This document shows, in pieces, positions 6,181 through 21,915 of a DNA stretch of 64,000 bases. The notes under the pieces are model-generated. The model did not search any database, was not told the DNA's origin, and worked only from the letters and a program-made list of their open reading frames with translations. How positions within the stretch are numbered: the stretch's first letter is position 1; every line of letters begins with the position of its first letter. Both the position numbers and the translations under genes were made by a program. The stretch is from Bacteroidota bacterium (GTDB lineage Bacteria > Bacteroidota > Ignavibacteria > UBA10030 > UBA8401), in assembly GCA_021796215.1 (NCBI GenBank), contig JAJYOK010000002.1:124001-188000 (forward strand), given 5' to 3'.

Positions 6181-6220
6181 CACCCCGTTGGACATCTCAC
6201 CAAAGGGTGCAATCATTTTT
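6181..6220 (+). terminator. Terminator after the cyclase gene
   Basis: CACCC (6181-6185) pairs with GGGTG (6205-6209), with TTGG/CCAA extending the stem inside. CAATCATTTTTATTT follows. It lies between the convergent cyclase and lipoprotein genes. Confidence 0.6.
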
Positions 6221-6827
6221 ATTTAAGTCCCAACACAGCTTTTGCAAACAACAATTGATCTTCGCCAAATGAGGTTAATAATGCGTCGGATTTTTCCTGC
6301 CGCAGTTCCAATTCATACATCCGTTTCTCGCTGCGGAACACAAGCACGCGCCGCAGCAAATAATCTTTTGCGTAAATATATAAGCAAAACCGCGGGTCAT
6401 TTTTAAAAAGCGACGGCGTTCGGATAATTCTGCTCACAACATTCAACTGCGCTAATTTTTCCTGAAGTGAAACATTTCCGAGCACACATATATCTTCATT
6501 CGCAAGCATTGCTCTCGTTGCGGCTGATGAGTGGAGTTCTTTCAAAACCATAACAGCGGAACGATTTTCATTGACAAGGCGCATAAGGTTGCCGGGTCCG
6601 GAAGCCGAGAGCTTTTCCCGGAACCAGCCGGATGGCAGGATAAAAGATTCTTCGCGAGATGGAGGAGTGGAATGAAGTGCAGGTGCTTCAGTCGTTGCAC
6701 GTTGAGAAACACAGCCGGGAAAAATTGCGGAAAGTCCTGCAAAGACTACGAGAAGAATAAACAAACGCCCTTGTGTCAAAACATATCCTTGGCGAACAGG
6801 GAAAAACCGAAGCTCGGCACCACTCAT
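6219..6827 (-). CDS. Putative lipoprotein of unknown function
   Basis: 202 residues. The ATG at 6827 directly follows the TGA of the PorV-like gene (TGAATG), which suggests translational coupling. A hydrophobic segment (about 22-37) ends at a Cys (FPGC), a weak lipobox, so it may be a lipoprotein. The rest is mixed alpha/beta without a motif I recognise. It may serve the PorV-like protein encoded just before it. Confidence 0.6.
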   Translation of the reverse strand: MSGAELRFFPVRQGYVLTQGRLFILLVVFAGLSAIFPGCVSQRATTEAPALHSTPPSREESFILPSGWFREKLSASGPGNLMRLVNENRSAVMVLKELHSSAATRAMLANEDICVLGNVSLQEKLAQLNVVSRIIRTPSLFKNDPRFCLYIYAKDYLLRRVLVFRSEKRMYELELRQEKSDALLTSFGEDQLLFAKAVLGLK

Positions 6828-7973
6828 TCACTCTGCGTCCCGGCGATACTTTTCTTCTTCAATGACAAGCCGAAGCGAAATGCGGTGGGAGTTTCCTAAT
6901 TGATCTGCGCCGTTAAACTTTGCAAATGCATAATCAATATCGAGCTTCGGCAAATGCACGCCCGCTCCGAGCGTAAGGTTGCCAATATCGTTCATCCCGA
7001 CACGGAGTGCGGCAATATGTTTGAATTCGTATTCAACGCCGCCGTGCGGATCGAAACTTACCGGACCGACATGCGCCATAGCTGAATACTTTCTGTCCTC
7101 AAAACGAATATCAACATCTACAGCGGGCGCGAACCGTCCTCCTAAAAACTGAAAAGAGTATGCGCCGCCGACTTTGACGGTGGGCGAGATCAACTCGTTC
7201 GTTCCCGTGCTCCACGCGACAAGCGTAGTCGTAACATCCTGAATATTTGCACCCAGCATCAAATTCTCCGAAGCCGCATACAATCCGCCGACATCAAATC
7301 CGATGCCGGTGGCGTAAAAGTCGCCAATAGTTCTCCGAATCAATTTCAGATTTGCGCCCCAATATAAATTTTCCGAATGCTGTTTGGCATATGTGAAATA
7401 AACAGCCCAATCCGCGGCGTTGAAAAAAGTAATCTGACTATAATCCGGCCTGATGTCGGGACCGTCGTTAAAAATACCGTCTCCGTTGATGTCATTCCAT
7501 GCGCTGCGCGTGTCGGGGATGCCATCGATGCCGAGACGAAAGATGCTCACGCCAAAAGACGCCGCATTATATTCAATCTGCTTACTGCTCTCTCCATCTT
7601 GATTCATCGTCGTAGAATCGGTTTGCTGATTCTTCCCGTACGGAAACGCGACAGCCGCATAATCATAATTCACCAGACTGCCGAACTGCTCGTCGTGCAT
7701 CAGCGAAATTTCTGGATACGTAATGCGCGCGAGCCCTGCAGGATTCCAATATCCCGCTGTGACATCGTTCGCCAATGCAACATACGCGCCGCCCATTCCA
7801 AGCGCGCGCCCGCCAACACCGATTGCCATAAACTCTCCGGCATACTTAGCAACTTGAAAACCACCCGCAAATGCTGGCTGAAAATTTGCCGGGACAACGA
7901 GGAAAAGAAGGAACGCCGATGAAATGAGGCTGAAAAAATATTTATTGAAAATCCCTTTGGGAAAGATGTTCAT
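6828..7973 (-). CDS. PorV/PorQ-like outer-membrane protein (UPF0164 type)
   Basis: 381 residues from the ATG at 7973; a longer open frame to 8054 would run through a terminator-like hairpin and put 27 residues before the signal peptide. After the signal (cleavage near AFAGG) comes the family signature: VGGRALGMGGAYVALANDV and then YWNPAGLA, typical of the PorV/UPF0164 14-strand barrels of Bacteroidota and Ignavibacteria. PorV handles T9SS cargo at the outer membrane, but many paralogues of this family exist, so a role in secretion is inference. T9SS-tagged proteins are encoded at 12867 and 30388. Its promoter region is described separately. Confidence 0.85.
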   Translation of the reverse strand: MNIFPKGIFNKYFFSLISSAFLLFLVVPANFQPAFAGGFQVAKYAGEFMAIGVGGRALGMGGAYVALANDVTAGYWNPAGLARITYPEISLMHDEQFGSLVNYDYAAVAFPYGKNQQTDSTTMNQDGESSKQIEYNAASFGVSIFRLGIDGIPDTRSAWNDINGDGIFNDGPDIRPDYSQITFFNAADWAVYFTYAKQHSENLYWGANLKLIRRTIGDFYATGIGFDVGGLYAASENLMLGANIQDVTTTLVAWSTGTNELISPTVKVGGAYSFQFLGGRFAPAVDVDIRFEDRKYSAMAHVGPVSFDPHGGVEYEFKHIAALRVGMNDIGNLTLGAGVHLPKLDIDYAFAKFNGADQLGNSHRISLRLVIEEEKYRRDAE

Positions 7974-7990: not shown

Positions 7991-8024
7991 AAAAAAACCG
8001 AATCTCTCTTCGCGAAATTCGGTT
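7991..8024 (-). terminator. Terminator-like hairpin in the leader of the PorV-like gene
   Basis: On the minus strand AACCGAAT (8024-8017) pairs perfectly with ATTCGGTT (8003-7996), and the stem runs into seven T residues. It ends 18 bases before the ATG at 7973 and lies downstream of the predicted promoter, so it would act as an attenuator. An upstream CTCTCT run can pair with AGAGAG in the hairpin loop, giving a possible competing structure. Confidence 0.65.
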
Positions 8025-8062
8025 CATCTTGTTAGAGAGAAATGAGCATAACACTCAAACAC

Positions 8063-8091
8063 AATATACACACCACACTTTACTCTAACAA
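8063..8091 (-). promoter_or_regulatory. Predicted promoter of the PorV-like gene
   Basis: TTGTTA (8091-8086), a 17-base spacer and TATATT (8068-8063) on the minus strand. Transcription would start near 8056, giving a leader of about 80 bases that contains the hairpin at 7991-8024. Confidence 0.5.
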
Positions 8092-8096
8092 TTGAC

Positions 8097-8109
8097 GATA
8101 ATCATTATC
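8097..8109. promoter_or_regulatory. Fur-box-like palindrome GATAATCATTATC
   Basis: A perfect 6-1-6 palindrome equal to 13 of the 19 bases of the classical Fur box, placed directly upstream of the predicted -35 of the PorV-like gene and 169 bases upstream of the divergent methyltransferase gene. A Fur-family protein is encoded at 60456, but the palindrome near that gene has a different sequence, so the regulator is not certain. Confidence 0.45.
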
Positions 8110-8277
8110 TACGTGTTCTAAATTACACAAATAAGCTTGAAAGTCAAATCGTTTTTGTGCGAGAAGCATTGCGCTTGTCCGCTTCCCAAAATACATCGCT
8201 ATCCGATTAAACCGACGGATTTCATTTCAGCAATGAAGTGCGTACATTGATCTCGCTGCTCTAAGAGAAGGATTTTA

Positions 8278-8826
8278 ATGAGAAAACTAACACATGATGA
8301 AATCGCTGCACGCCGCACACCGCTGGAAAAAATACCGGAACGCAGGCGGTTTCCGATTTATGGCTGGGCTGATAATATCCGAAGTCTCTACAATGTCGGC
8401 TCAATATTCCGCACATCGGACGGCGCAATGATCGAAAAATTATTTCTCACAGGATTTACTCCACACCCACCGCGGAAAGAGATCGAGAAAACCGCGCTCG
8501 GCGCAACAAATACAGTCCCATGGGAATATTACAAACACCCGCAAGAACTTCTTGGAAAATTGCAAGCAAAGAAAGTAAAGATTTGCGTGCTCGAATTGAC
8601 ATCGGGAAGTAAACCATATTACACAATTACACCGCAGGAATTTCCACTCTGCCTTGTGGTGGGAAATGAAATCACCGGAGTCTCAAAAGAAATCATCGAG
8701 CATGCCGACCTTGCAATTGAAATCCCAATGTTCGGCAACAAGCAATCGCTTAATGTCGCCGTTGCGTATGGCATCGCATTATTCGATCTCGTACGAGTCA
8801 TTCAATCGTATGAAAGAGTGAAATAA
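8278..8826 (+). CDS. TrmH/SpoU-family RNA methyltransferase
   Basis: 182 residues, a minimal SpoU-type (SPOUT) 2'-O-methyltransferase. The family motifs are present: NIRSLYNVGSIFRTSDG (motif 1, Asn and Arg for catalysis), VVGNEITGVSKE (motif 2) and IPMFGNKQSLNVAVAYGIALF (motif 3, knotted SAM site) with no extra RNA-binding domain. The target, tRNA or rRNA, cannot be told. AGAGAAGGA lies just upstream of the ATG. Its 3' end overlaps the convergent regulator gene by 25 bases. Confidence 0.92.
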   Translation: MRKLTHDEIAARRTPLEKIPERRRFPIYGWADNIRSLYNVGSIFRTSDGAMIEKLFLTGFTPHPPRKEIEKTALGATNTVPWEYYKHPQELLGKLQAKKVKICVLELTSGSKPYYTITPQEFPLCLVVGNEITGVSKEIIEHADLAIEIPMFGNKQSLNVAVAYGIALFDLVRVIQSYERVK

Positions 8827-9446
8827 TCGTTCTTCTCAAGCGTATGAATCCGCACAACTCCTGCGCGTACTAGCGTTGTGAGAATGCGCGACGCGCGGCG
8901 TAGCGACACATTGATAAGCTCAGCATACTCTTTCACCGTAATGCGCTCGTGCGTGTCGAGATATTCGAATAATTTTCGCTCGTTGCTGCCGATGACAAGT
9001 TTCAACGGAGGTGCATCGGGGCGTTCGTCGCGCAGCACTTTGATGACTTCCTTGCTCGCGATCAGCGTTTGATCCTTCACGCGGATATAGACCTTATTTT
9101 CTTCGCCGTTCCCGCTCAGAAGGTAATGCGGCTTTTCGACGCTCTGTTCTACCGATGCGACAATCACATCCTTCTCATCGAAGGGAATAACTTCAATATC
9201 AATTCCGATTGGCGGATCACAAAGCTGTGTTGCGGCAAAATCAATGAGATCAATCTCAGATTTTTCGCTTTCAACTCCGAAAATTCCTCCGTCATCATCC
9301 ACACCGAATAGGATCACGCCGCCTTGTGTATTTGCGAGCGCAATCAGCTCACGCGCTATTTTTTCCGGAGAAGAAATCTTTCGTTTGAATTCAATGCCGA
9401 TTCCTTCTCCTGATTGTATGAACTCTCTCACGTCTCCGGGTGTCAT
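8802..9446 (-). CDS. AlbA_2 (Schlafen-type) domain protein with C-terminal HTH, probable transcription regulator
   Basis: 214 residues. Residues about 1-120 form an AlbA_2/divergent AAA_4 domain (IEFKRK, then ALANTQGGVILFGVDDDG); the last about 65 residues look like a winged helix (ITVKEYAELINVSLRRASRIL). Proteins of this make-up are usually annotated as DNA-binding regulators. It is the last gene of a rel-ruvX-mtgA run, starting one base after the mtgA stop, and overlaps the convergent methyltransferase gene. Target unknown. Confidence 0.8.
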   Translation of the reverse strand: MTPGDVREFIQSGEGIGIEFKRKISSPEKIARELIALANTQGGVILFGVDDDGGIFGVESEKSEIDLIDFAATQLCDPPIGIDIEVIPFDEKDVIVASVEQSVEKPHYLLSGNGEENKVYIRVKDQTLIASKEVIKVLRDERPDAPPLKLVIGSNERKLFEYLDTHERITVKEYAELINVSLRRASRILTTLVRAGVVRIHTLEKNDYFTLSYD

Positions 9447-18916: not shown

Positions 18917-20074
18917 CTACAACGCATTCAGGGCAAGAAATTCTCTTACGAACTTTGAAAGCTGATCATATTCAATAAGAAATGCATCGTGCCCAAACGG
19001 AGTTTTTATCTCGCGATATGTTGAATGCCGAATATGCGAAGCAATTTCTTTCTGCTCGTGAACAGGATACAGGACGTCGGTATCAATTCCGATATTTAAC
19101 GATGGAACAGAAATTGAGGCAAGCACTTCATTGACTTCTCCCCTTCCGAATGCAACGTCGTGCAAGTCCATTGCATACGTGATATACAGGTACGTGTTCG
19201 CATCGAATCGTTCGACAAGCTTTTTCCCTTGATAACGAAGATAACTTTCAACTTGAAAAAGATTCGCCGTATCGAACCGGGCAGTTTTTAATTCTCCGTT
19301 TGTTTTCAATCTCTCACGATGAAAGCGCTGAAGGAAAGAGACATCGCTTCGATACGACATCATCGCAATCTGACGGGCGATGGAAAGCCCTTTTTCCGGC
19401 TGGCGAAAATCGTAGTAATTGCCGTTTCGCCACTCAGGATCGTTCATGATCGCCTGCCGGGCTATATCGTTCAGCCCGATGCACCACGGCGAATGCTGGC
19501 TTGCAGTTGCGATGGGAATAATTGATTGCACAATGTCGGGATACATCAACGCCCACTCAAGCACTTGCATTCCACCAAGCGAGCCGCCGATAACTGTACG
19601 TAGTTTTTTCACACCCAAAAAGTCAATCAGCGCTTTTTGTACACGCACCATGTCGCGCACAGTCATCTGCGGAAAATCCATACCGTACGGTTTTCCGGTT
19701 TTCGGATCAGGGGAAACAGAACCGGTTGTACCATAGCATCCGCCGAGAAAATTGGACGAAATGACAAAATATTTCGATGTATCAAGACCTCTGCCTTCAC
19801 CAATGAACGGCTCCCACCATCCTGCGCTTTTCCGCCCAGAAGATGACGGAGTCTGATCGTCTGAAGAAAATCCGGCGGCGTGAGCGCTTCCTGTAAGCGC
19901 GTGGCACACAAGAATTGCATTATCGCGCGATGCATTCAATTTGCCGTATGTTTCGTACGCAACATGCACCGGCGATAATTCTTTTCCGCAATCGAATTCA
20001 AACGGATGCGCCGCTGAAAATAACTCGGCGATCTGTGTTTCGACAATTGGAATATTTTTTACTTCAATGGACAT
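18917..20074 (-). CDS. metX: Homoserine O-acetyltransferase
   Basis: 385 residues from the ATG at 20074. The open frame extends to 20146, but that extension passes through a hairpin terminator and the end of metY, so the shorter start is preferred. Alpha/beta-hydrolase acyltransferase: nucleophile Ser in GGSLGGMQVLEW, catalytic Asp and His near the C-terminus (IDTDVLYP, PFGHDAFLIE). It transfers an acetyl group from acetyl-CoA to homoserine, the first step of direct sulfhydrylation to methionine. It works with metY upstream and should fall under the SAM riboswitch if transcription passes the internal hairpin. Confidence 0.95.
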   Translation of the reverse strand: MSIEVKNIPIVETQIAELFSAAHPFEFDCGKELSPVHVAYETYGKLNASRDNAILVCHALTGSAHAAGFSSDDQTPSSSGRKSAGWWEPFIGEGRGLDTSKYFVISSNFLGGCYGTTGSVSPDPKTGKPYGMDFPQMTVRDMVRVQKALIDFLGVKKLRTVIGGSLGGMQVLEWALMYPDIVQSIIPIATASQHSPWCIGLNDIARQAIMNDPEWRNGNYYDFRQPEKGLSIARQIAMMSYRSDVSFLQRFHRERLKTNGELKTARFDTANLFQVESYLRYQGKKLVERFDANTYLYITYAMDLHDVAFGRGEVNEVLASISVPSLNIGIDTDVLYPVHEQKEIASHIRHSTYREIKTPFGHDAFLIEYDQLSKFVREFLALNAL

Positions 20075-20084
20075 GCAATTTGTA

Positions 20085-20121
20085 AAAATGAAGTGCCGCA
20101 TATCTGCAACATGCGGCACTT
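20085..20121 (-). terminator. Hairpin between metY and metX
   Basis: An 11-base perfect stem (AAGTGCCGCAT at 20091-20101 with ATGCGGCACTT at 20111-20121), 9-base loop, followed on the minus strand by CATTTTTA. It lies 17 bases before the metX start and may lower or stop read-through from metY. Confidence 0.6.
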
Positions 20122-20135
20122 TTGGAATCTGTGAG

Positions 20136-21503
<1,368 letters not shown>

Positions 21504-21744: not shown

Positions 21745-21763
21745 TCAAAGAACTCAGTCTTGG

Positions 21764-21884
21764 TTCATCTTCTGATCCCGCTTTACGGGACCTCAGAAAT
21801 TAGCACCTGACGTTCTGTCTGTTTAACAAACCGAACCGGTTGCTGTGGTTTCACAGGGTCTGTCCCTCCGCCACTCTTGATGAA
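21764..21884 (-). ncRNA. SAM-I (S-box) riboswitch aptamer
   Basis: On the minus strand the conserved S-box order is seen: P1 strand TTCATC (21884-21879), then AAGAGTGGCGGAGGGAC, then CCCTGTGAAACCACAGCAACC, AGGTGCTAATTTCTGA, the P4 helix (GTCCCG/CGGGAT), and the closing P1 strand GATGAA (21769-21764). SAM-I switches bind S-adenosylmethionine and stop transcription of methionine genes when it is plentiful. The downstream terminator and metY-metX fit this role. Confidence 0.95.
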
Positions 21885-21915
21885 GCATCTTATTTTCAAA
21901 GAAACTACTTCTAAT

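Follow-up and report, generated by a model that had tools for sequence, protein, structure and literature searches.

The leader of a PorV/PorQ-family gene in a 64,000-nucleotide stretch of DNA from a Bacteroidota bacterium (the window) probably acts as a genuine, hitherto undescribed on/off switch of the type IX secretion machine (T9SS). The preferred reading, to which a probability of about 0.6 is attached, is a transcription attenuator that is off by default and controls porU together with the PorV-type gene. A leader of shared architecture and different letters precedes porU in this genome, across the order and in one further family. An attenuator upstream of the PorV-type gene had been proposed in an earlier note on this DNA, and the proposal is supported: the terminator, the leader and the promoter-like boxes are conserved in relatives.

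The PorV-family gene and its leader

The gene that the leader would control (6828-7973, minus strand) encodes an outer-membrane protein of 381 aa. It scores 110.7 bits against the PorV/PorQ family NF033709 of NCBIfam, above the cut-off of 90, and stays below the cut-offs of the narrower models PorV2 (NF052325, 206.9 bits against 325) and PorV (NF033710, 34.6 bits against 250); the product is therefore named PorV-family, not PorV. Directly after its stop the open reading frame list places a gene of 202 aa (6219-6827, minus strand), which has no match in Pfam or NCBIfam and probably belongs to the same operon. Elsewhere in the window, a minus-strand gene with a Schlafen/AlbA_2 domain and a winged helix (8802-9446) overlaps the end of a SpoU methylase gene on the opposite strand.

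As the earlier note had stated, a perfect stem of 8 bp and seven T residues precede the start codon. On the minus strand, AACCGAAT (8024-8017) pairs with ATTCGGTT (8003-7996), and a terminator scan counts 12 pairs when the G·U extension of this stem is included. The whole hairpin, AACCGAATTTCGCGAAGAGAGATTCGGTT (7996-8024), is recovered by scan, sequence and predicted fold, and its CCGAAT/ATTCGG is conserved. TTTTTTT, the U7 tract of the RNA, occupies 7997-7991, and the ATG of the PorV-family gene lies 17 nt further, at 7973. A six-codon frame, ATGACTACGGTGATGCTATGA (7990-7970, minus strand), opens with an ATG immediately behind the T tract and ends in a stop codon that overlaps the PorV-family ATG.

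Taken alone, the hairpin is not beyond chance. The 7 kb scanned hold 7 terminator-like sites, against 8.7 expected from shuffles, and the fold z-score is -2.2, with 5 of 200 shuffles equally good. What lifts it above chance is its conservation at the same place in relatives, together with the covariation in the sister leaders of porU.

Transcription probably starts near 8113, from a predicted -35-like box TTGACT (8142-8147, minus strand) and a predicted -10-like box TAATTT (8120-8125, minus strand). TTGAC stands at the equivalent site in most orthologue leaders of the same family, and TATCTT takes the place of the -10-like box in many relatives. The leader RNA, whose 5' end is thus predicted, would measure about 123 nt if terminated (7991-8113, minus strand), and the leader is matched by the R1 model described below. 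The promoter of the earlier note, presumably TTGTTA-17-TATATT at 8091-8063, is probably wrong, because it lies inside the conserved leader, where a start would also fall, and overlaps the first arm.

This first arm, S1, reads TTGTTAGAG (8083-8091, minus strand), is present in all 16 aligned leaders, and forms the 5' arm of a hairpin, P1. In the predicted minimum-energy fold of the window leader it is paired with the second arm, S2, CTCTAACAA (8029-8037, minus strand). S2 is contained in CTCTCTAACAA (8039-8029), and about 45 variable bases separate it from S1. Sequence, alignment, predicted fold and the swap and shuffle tests reported below suggest that S2 is common to P1 and to an alternative, antiterminator helix. 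The complementarity between CTCTCT (8039-8034) and AGAGAG (8009-8004) that had been pointed out earlier exists on the minus strand and extends to 7 bp, UCUCUCU (8040-8034) with AGAGAGA (8009-8003); the main partner of CTCTCT, the upstream arm at 8091-8083, had been overlooked. UCUCUCU would be the 5' strand of the antiterminator helix, and AGAGAGA, which belongs to the 3' side of the terminator, the third strand, S3; the swap and shuffle tests bear on both.

Conservation of the leader among relatives

A protein match to the PorV-family gene was found in all 60 relatives searched, whose names mark them as Ignavibacteria, Melioribacteraceae and other Bacteroidota MAGs. A model, R1, was built from 16 aligned PorV-family leaders, including that of the window. 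GTTAGAG, CTCTAAC and TTCGG formed part of the pattern by which the 16 were collected, and their invariance is partly by construction. At E<=0.01, R1 is matched in 20 of the 60 relatives, 19 times at the PorV-family orthologue (16 of these being the input of the model itself) and once at porU (G051). The window leader, one of the input sequences, is the sole R1 match in its own genome (G000), with an E value of 2.6e-17. The stem is conserved among relatives, so that the loss of conservation named in the earlier note as a refuting outcome did not occur, and the start codons of their PorV-family orthologues come after the T tract.

In 294 genomes of the class Ignavibacteria, 27 were matched by R1. 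The 16 matches outside the input comprise 9 before the PorV-family orthologue, 5 before porU-type genes and 2 that look unrelated. The porU-type matches come from G051 and from the four genomes that make up family f12; three of the five genes were examined with NCBIfam, and the other two (L101, L103) were assigned by eye. The matches in G237 and G260 resemble ordinary terminators. No such leader was seen in the PorV-family upstream regions read from families f2 to f4, and the coupling with porU is therefore not universal.

A sister leader upstream of porU

The porU sortase gene of the same genome scores 1003.3 bits against NF033707 (cut-off 420) and carries Peptidase_C25. Its leader (L113:1660-1835, G000:C14) reads TTGTTAAAGGTT...TCAACCTTTAA, followed by a CCGAACG...CGTTCGG hairpin, in the same layout as the PorV-family leader. 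With a U6 tract at the end of its first hairpin, it may contain two terminators in a row; the first hairpin of porU leaders in family f1 is likewise U-tailed, so that the polymerase would meet two successive terminators.

porU was found in 58 of the 60 relatives, and many of its upstream regions are alike: GGAG, TATMG, TTGTTAAAGGTT, a variable loop, CCTTTAAC, and CCGAA...TTCGG with a T tract. Of the 53 porU upstream regions that reach 200 bases, 39 conform to a single parsing pattern and 14 do not. R2, a model made from 14 porU leaders, gives matches at E<=0.01 beside porU in 22 of the 60 relatives. Eighteen of these belong to the 22 genomes of the window's family, and in three of the other four porU starts at a contig edge. 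The porU leader is the sole R2 match in the window's genome, and the 7 genomes matched among 395 of the phylum all belong to the same order. The two sets of leaders share a modest sequence similarity: the porU leader of G051 is matched by R1 with an E value of 0.001, and the PorV-family leader of G040 by R2 with one of 0.03.

The letters of the 5' portion recur more often than expected in porU leaders, with GGAG in 32 of 44 (4.0 expected) and ATMG in 35 of 44 (9.7 expected). Across the 60 relatives, the pattern GTTAAAGG..CCTTTAAC occurs at 17 places in porU leaders and 2 elsewhere, against 7 places for a reversed control. Within the window's genome, TTGTTARAG..CTYTAA occurs in the window leader and at one other place, while control matches number 5 and 4 on the two strands. 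A similar first hairpin with a U tract lies before a thiol-disulfide oxidoreductase gene in a single relative (G006, L204:270-405, G006:C1).

The conserved letters around the first hairpin could be those of a ligand riboswitch, in which this hairpin is the aptamer, S2 is shared with the antiterminator, and a ligand stabilises P1 and turns the genes off. The same shared-strand logic would apply, and the first hairpin of porU is long, with conserved GGAG, TATMG and TTGTTAAAGG around an internal loop. Nevertheless, a riboswitch is considered unlikely: the leaders are without Rfam match, the enclosed loop is free to vary in length and sequence, the outer P1 helices found before porU are absent from the PorV-family leader, and the controlled genes suggest no metabolite.

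Translation of the same segment has also to be weighed. In a ribosome-controlled attenuator, a leader peptide starting from the UUG in S1 (UUG-UUA-RAG) would melt P1 when translated. An ORF of at least 4 codons overlaps S1 in 38 of 42 porU leaders and in most cases (33 counts) starts at a UUG four bases before TAAAGG, an ORF starts from the UUG of S1 in 13 of 15 PorV-family leaders, and GGAG is located upstream. However, the UUG simply belongs to S1, the sequences and lengths of these frames differ with nothing shared beyond the S1 codons, and the window version is only UUG-UUA-GAG-stop. In f1 porU leaders GGAG lies about 19 nt from the UUG, beyond the usual distance of a ribosome site, and no start codon was found at the usual distance from it. 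The combination of conserved short ORF, ribosome site and regulatory codons expected of a leader-peptide attenuator was not found, and this explanation appears very doubtful.

Covariation and the third strand

Covariance of the leader among relatives had been suggested earlier as a check. P1 of the PorV-family leaders never varies among the 16 aligned and offers no covariation test; the stems of the porU leaders, P1 and the terminator, do covary. In 43 porU leaders (L101 was excluded, the pattern having matched the wrong place), 95.6% of 815 cells are paired and 7 of 19 pairs have changed on both sides. Cells with a double change total 40, compared with 9.4 for shuffled sets and a maximum of 14 for slid partners. 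The outer helix covaries too in the 14 f1 porU leaders, where 94.3% of 389 cells of the whole structure are paired and 11 double-change cells stand against 3.2 shuffled.

These pairs bear on the suggestion that TTGTTARAG and its inverted copy form a DNA operator bound by a dimeric repressor or activator. An inverted repeat with conserved letters is what such a site would look like, but the two copies lie at distances that differ by tens of bases, the S1-S2 pairs covary and tolerate G-U pairs, and a U-tailed hairpin comes next. A DNA operator is accordingly regarded as extremely improbable.

The involvement of the third strand was examined with a tri-strand test, which asks for a stretch pairing both upstream and with the terminator hairpin, in comparison with shuffled terminators. 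The set was confined to porU and PorV leaders whose terminator, as located, has a CCG close to its beginning; nine leaders were added to it, five further PorV-family leaders and four of f12 with a terminator found. The mean z is 2.40 for 24 PorV-family leaders, 1.08 for 42 porU leaders and 3.42 for the four porU-type leaders of f12, against 0.00 for 53 control terminators from elsewhere in the window. Mann-Whitney p values of 1.7e-9 (PorV-family) and 5e-4 (porU) overstate the evidence, as the rows share descent. The window's own leader reaches a z of 1.85, with 10 of 60 shuffles equally good, and many porU leaders, chiefly of families f3 and f5, showed no S2-S3 excess in this test. When terminators are swapped, the S2 of PorV-family leaders prefers its own over those of porU in 611 of 624 swaps, and the S2 of porU prefers its own over PorV-family terminators in just 335 of 624.

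A single site in S2 of porU provides a finer comparison. S2 has A or G there, and S1 mostly keeps U. GTC is present in the terminator of 6 of the 7 leaders that have G and of 3 of the 26 that have A (Fisher p 5e-4, among related rows); the four f12 leaders were excluded, and 7 leaders had another S2. The seventh leader with G, L155, was misread by the script, and its listed terminator does hold GTC. Two genomes of one genus, G004 and G012, differ in the A/G of S2 and the T/C of the terminator together. Exceptions to the rule are one f5 leader and two f3 leaders from a single genus. In f12, the terminator GGTCT fits the AGACC of S2 better than the GGTTT of S1 does. S3 thus tracks S2, not S1, which favours real pairing over a repeated protein site.

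Folding energies and proposed mechanism

P1 forms before the terminator in the predicted nascent fold of the window leader (to 8020). Across 15 PorV-family leaders, P1 with the terminator is computed to beat the antiterminator by a mean of 12.4 kcal/mol. With S1 blocked, the terminator still wins in 15/15, by a mean of 6.6 kcal/mol, and the antiterminator is the best nascent fold in 0/15. The competing CTCTCT/AGAGAG helix of the earlier note is consequently in a divided position, being backed by the statistics of swaps and strands and disfavoured by every one of these energies. Since the antiterminator is computed to be weaker, any working switch must be kinetic or assisted by a factor.

The same energies would suit a constitutive premature terminator with an idle hairpin, which senses nothing and sets a low expression or makes a small RNA. 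The terminator is favoured in every energy comparison, and the porU leaders of two relatives (G001 and G008) lack the second terminator and retain the first hairpin and U tract only. On the other hand, the complementarity of S2 and S3 can be followed from family to family, and the letters of the 5' element are conserved, making a device that senses nothing decidedly unlikely.

According to the attenuator reading, transcription would begin near 8113 and the nascent RNA would fold P1 from S1 and S2. This would leave the CCGAAT...ATTCGG terminator free, and the polymerase would halt in the U tract, presumably the default off state. A factor acting on S1 or on the conserved 5' element preceding it would, in the direction that seems most plausible, free S2, which could then pair with S3 in the terminator hairpin and allow transcription to enter the PorV-family gene. 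With a related switch before porU, the sortase and the PorV-type gene might answer one signal. We infer that the trigger is a trans-acting factor, either a protein or a small RNA, and our guess is that it recognises the conserved 5' element GGAG...TATMG...TTGTTARAG. Recognition is placed before or in S1 because the conserved letters lie there, and a protein is favoured over a metabolite. The window's genome has two NusG-domain genes (G000:C39:75313 and G000:C37:35725), and one of the two may be a specialised antiterminator paralogue, a lead and not a result. According to the available text of a study of Flavobacterium psychrophilum, porU is induced by high osmotic pressure (PMC9723704), which hints at an envelope signal.

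Comparison with known systems

The window leader has no match in Rfam, T-box, ribosomal protein leaders and known riboswitches included, at the gathering level or at E up to 10, and for seven porU leader loci the only two matches obtained scored far below the gathering level. A search of solved structures returned no match. No leader RNA before porU or porV was found in the literature searched, which is not proof of absence. Undescribed structured 5' regions that are absent from Rfam have been reported in F. psychrophilum, and the section on 5' cis-regulatory RNAs in the available text of that study names none before T9SS genes (PMC9723704).

Regulation of T9SS by PorXY and SigP is described for Porphyromonas gingivalis in the available text of PMC4800418. 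Like these regulators, the leader is proposed to control genes of T9SS components; unlike it, they comprise a two-component system and a sigma factor rather than a leader RNA, and they belong to a different class of the phylum. To our knowledge, one two-component system and one sigma factor are the known controls of T9SS.

Riboswitches with a common P1/antiterminator strand, such as the SAM riboswitch (RF00162), use the 3' strand of the first hairpin in two folds. The present leader differs from them in having no aptamer family match, a variable loop and no metabolic gene. A SAM riboswitch (RF00162, 69.1 bits) is found in the window itself, at 21762-21886 on the minus strand, before a pair of ORFs (20136-21470 and 18917-20146) that we take to be an O-acetylhomoserine sulfhydrylase-type enzyme and a homoserine O-acetyltransferase.

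Classical transcription attenuators typically possess an anti-antiterminator hairpin, and we know of no T9SS sortase or PorV-type gene among the gene classes that they control. The trp/TRAP and rplJL attenuators of B. subtilis have mutually exclusive antiterminator and terminator helices, as described in the available portions of PMC3913778 and PMC4538822. The present leader resembles them in its position before a gene, its intrinsic terminator and its proposed alternative helix and anti-antiterminator hairpin, and departs from them in being without an Rfam match to a known leader and in the computed weakness of its antiterminator. It occurs before the sortase in much of the order and before the PorV-type gene in two or more of its families. 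A leader conserved in this way would give direct access to the signal that the cell senses as it makes the T9SS machine, and would add a new RNA family to Rfam. As judged from sequence comparison, it probably represents a new family of attenuators whose mechanism is of a known kind, acting on an unexpected pair of genes.
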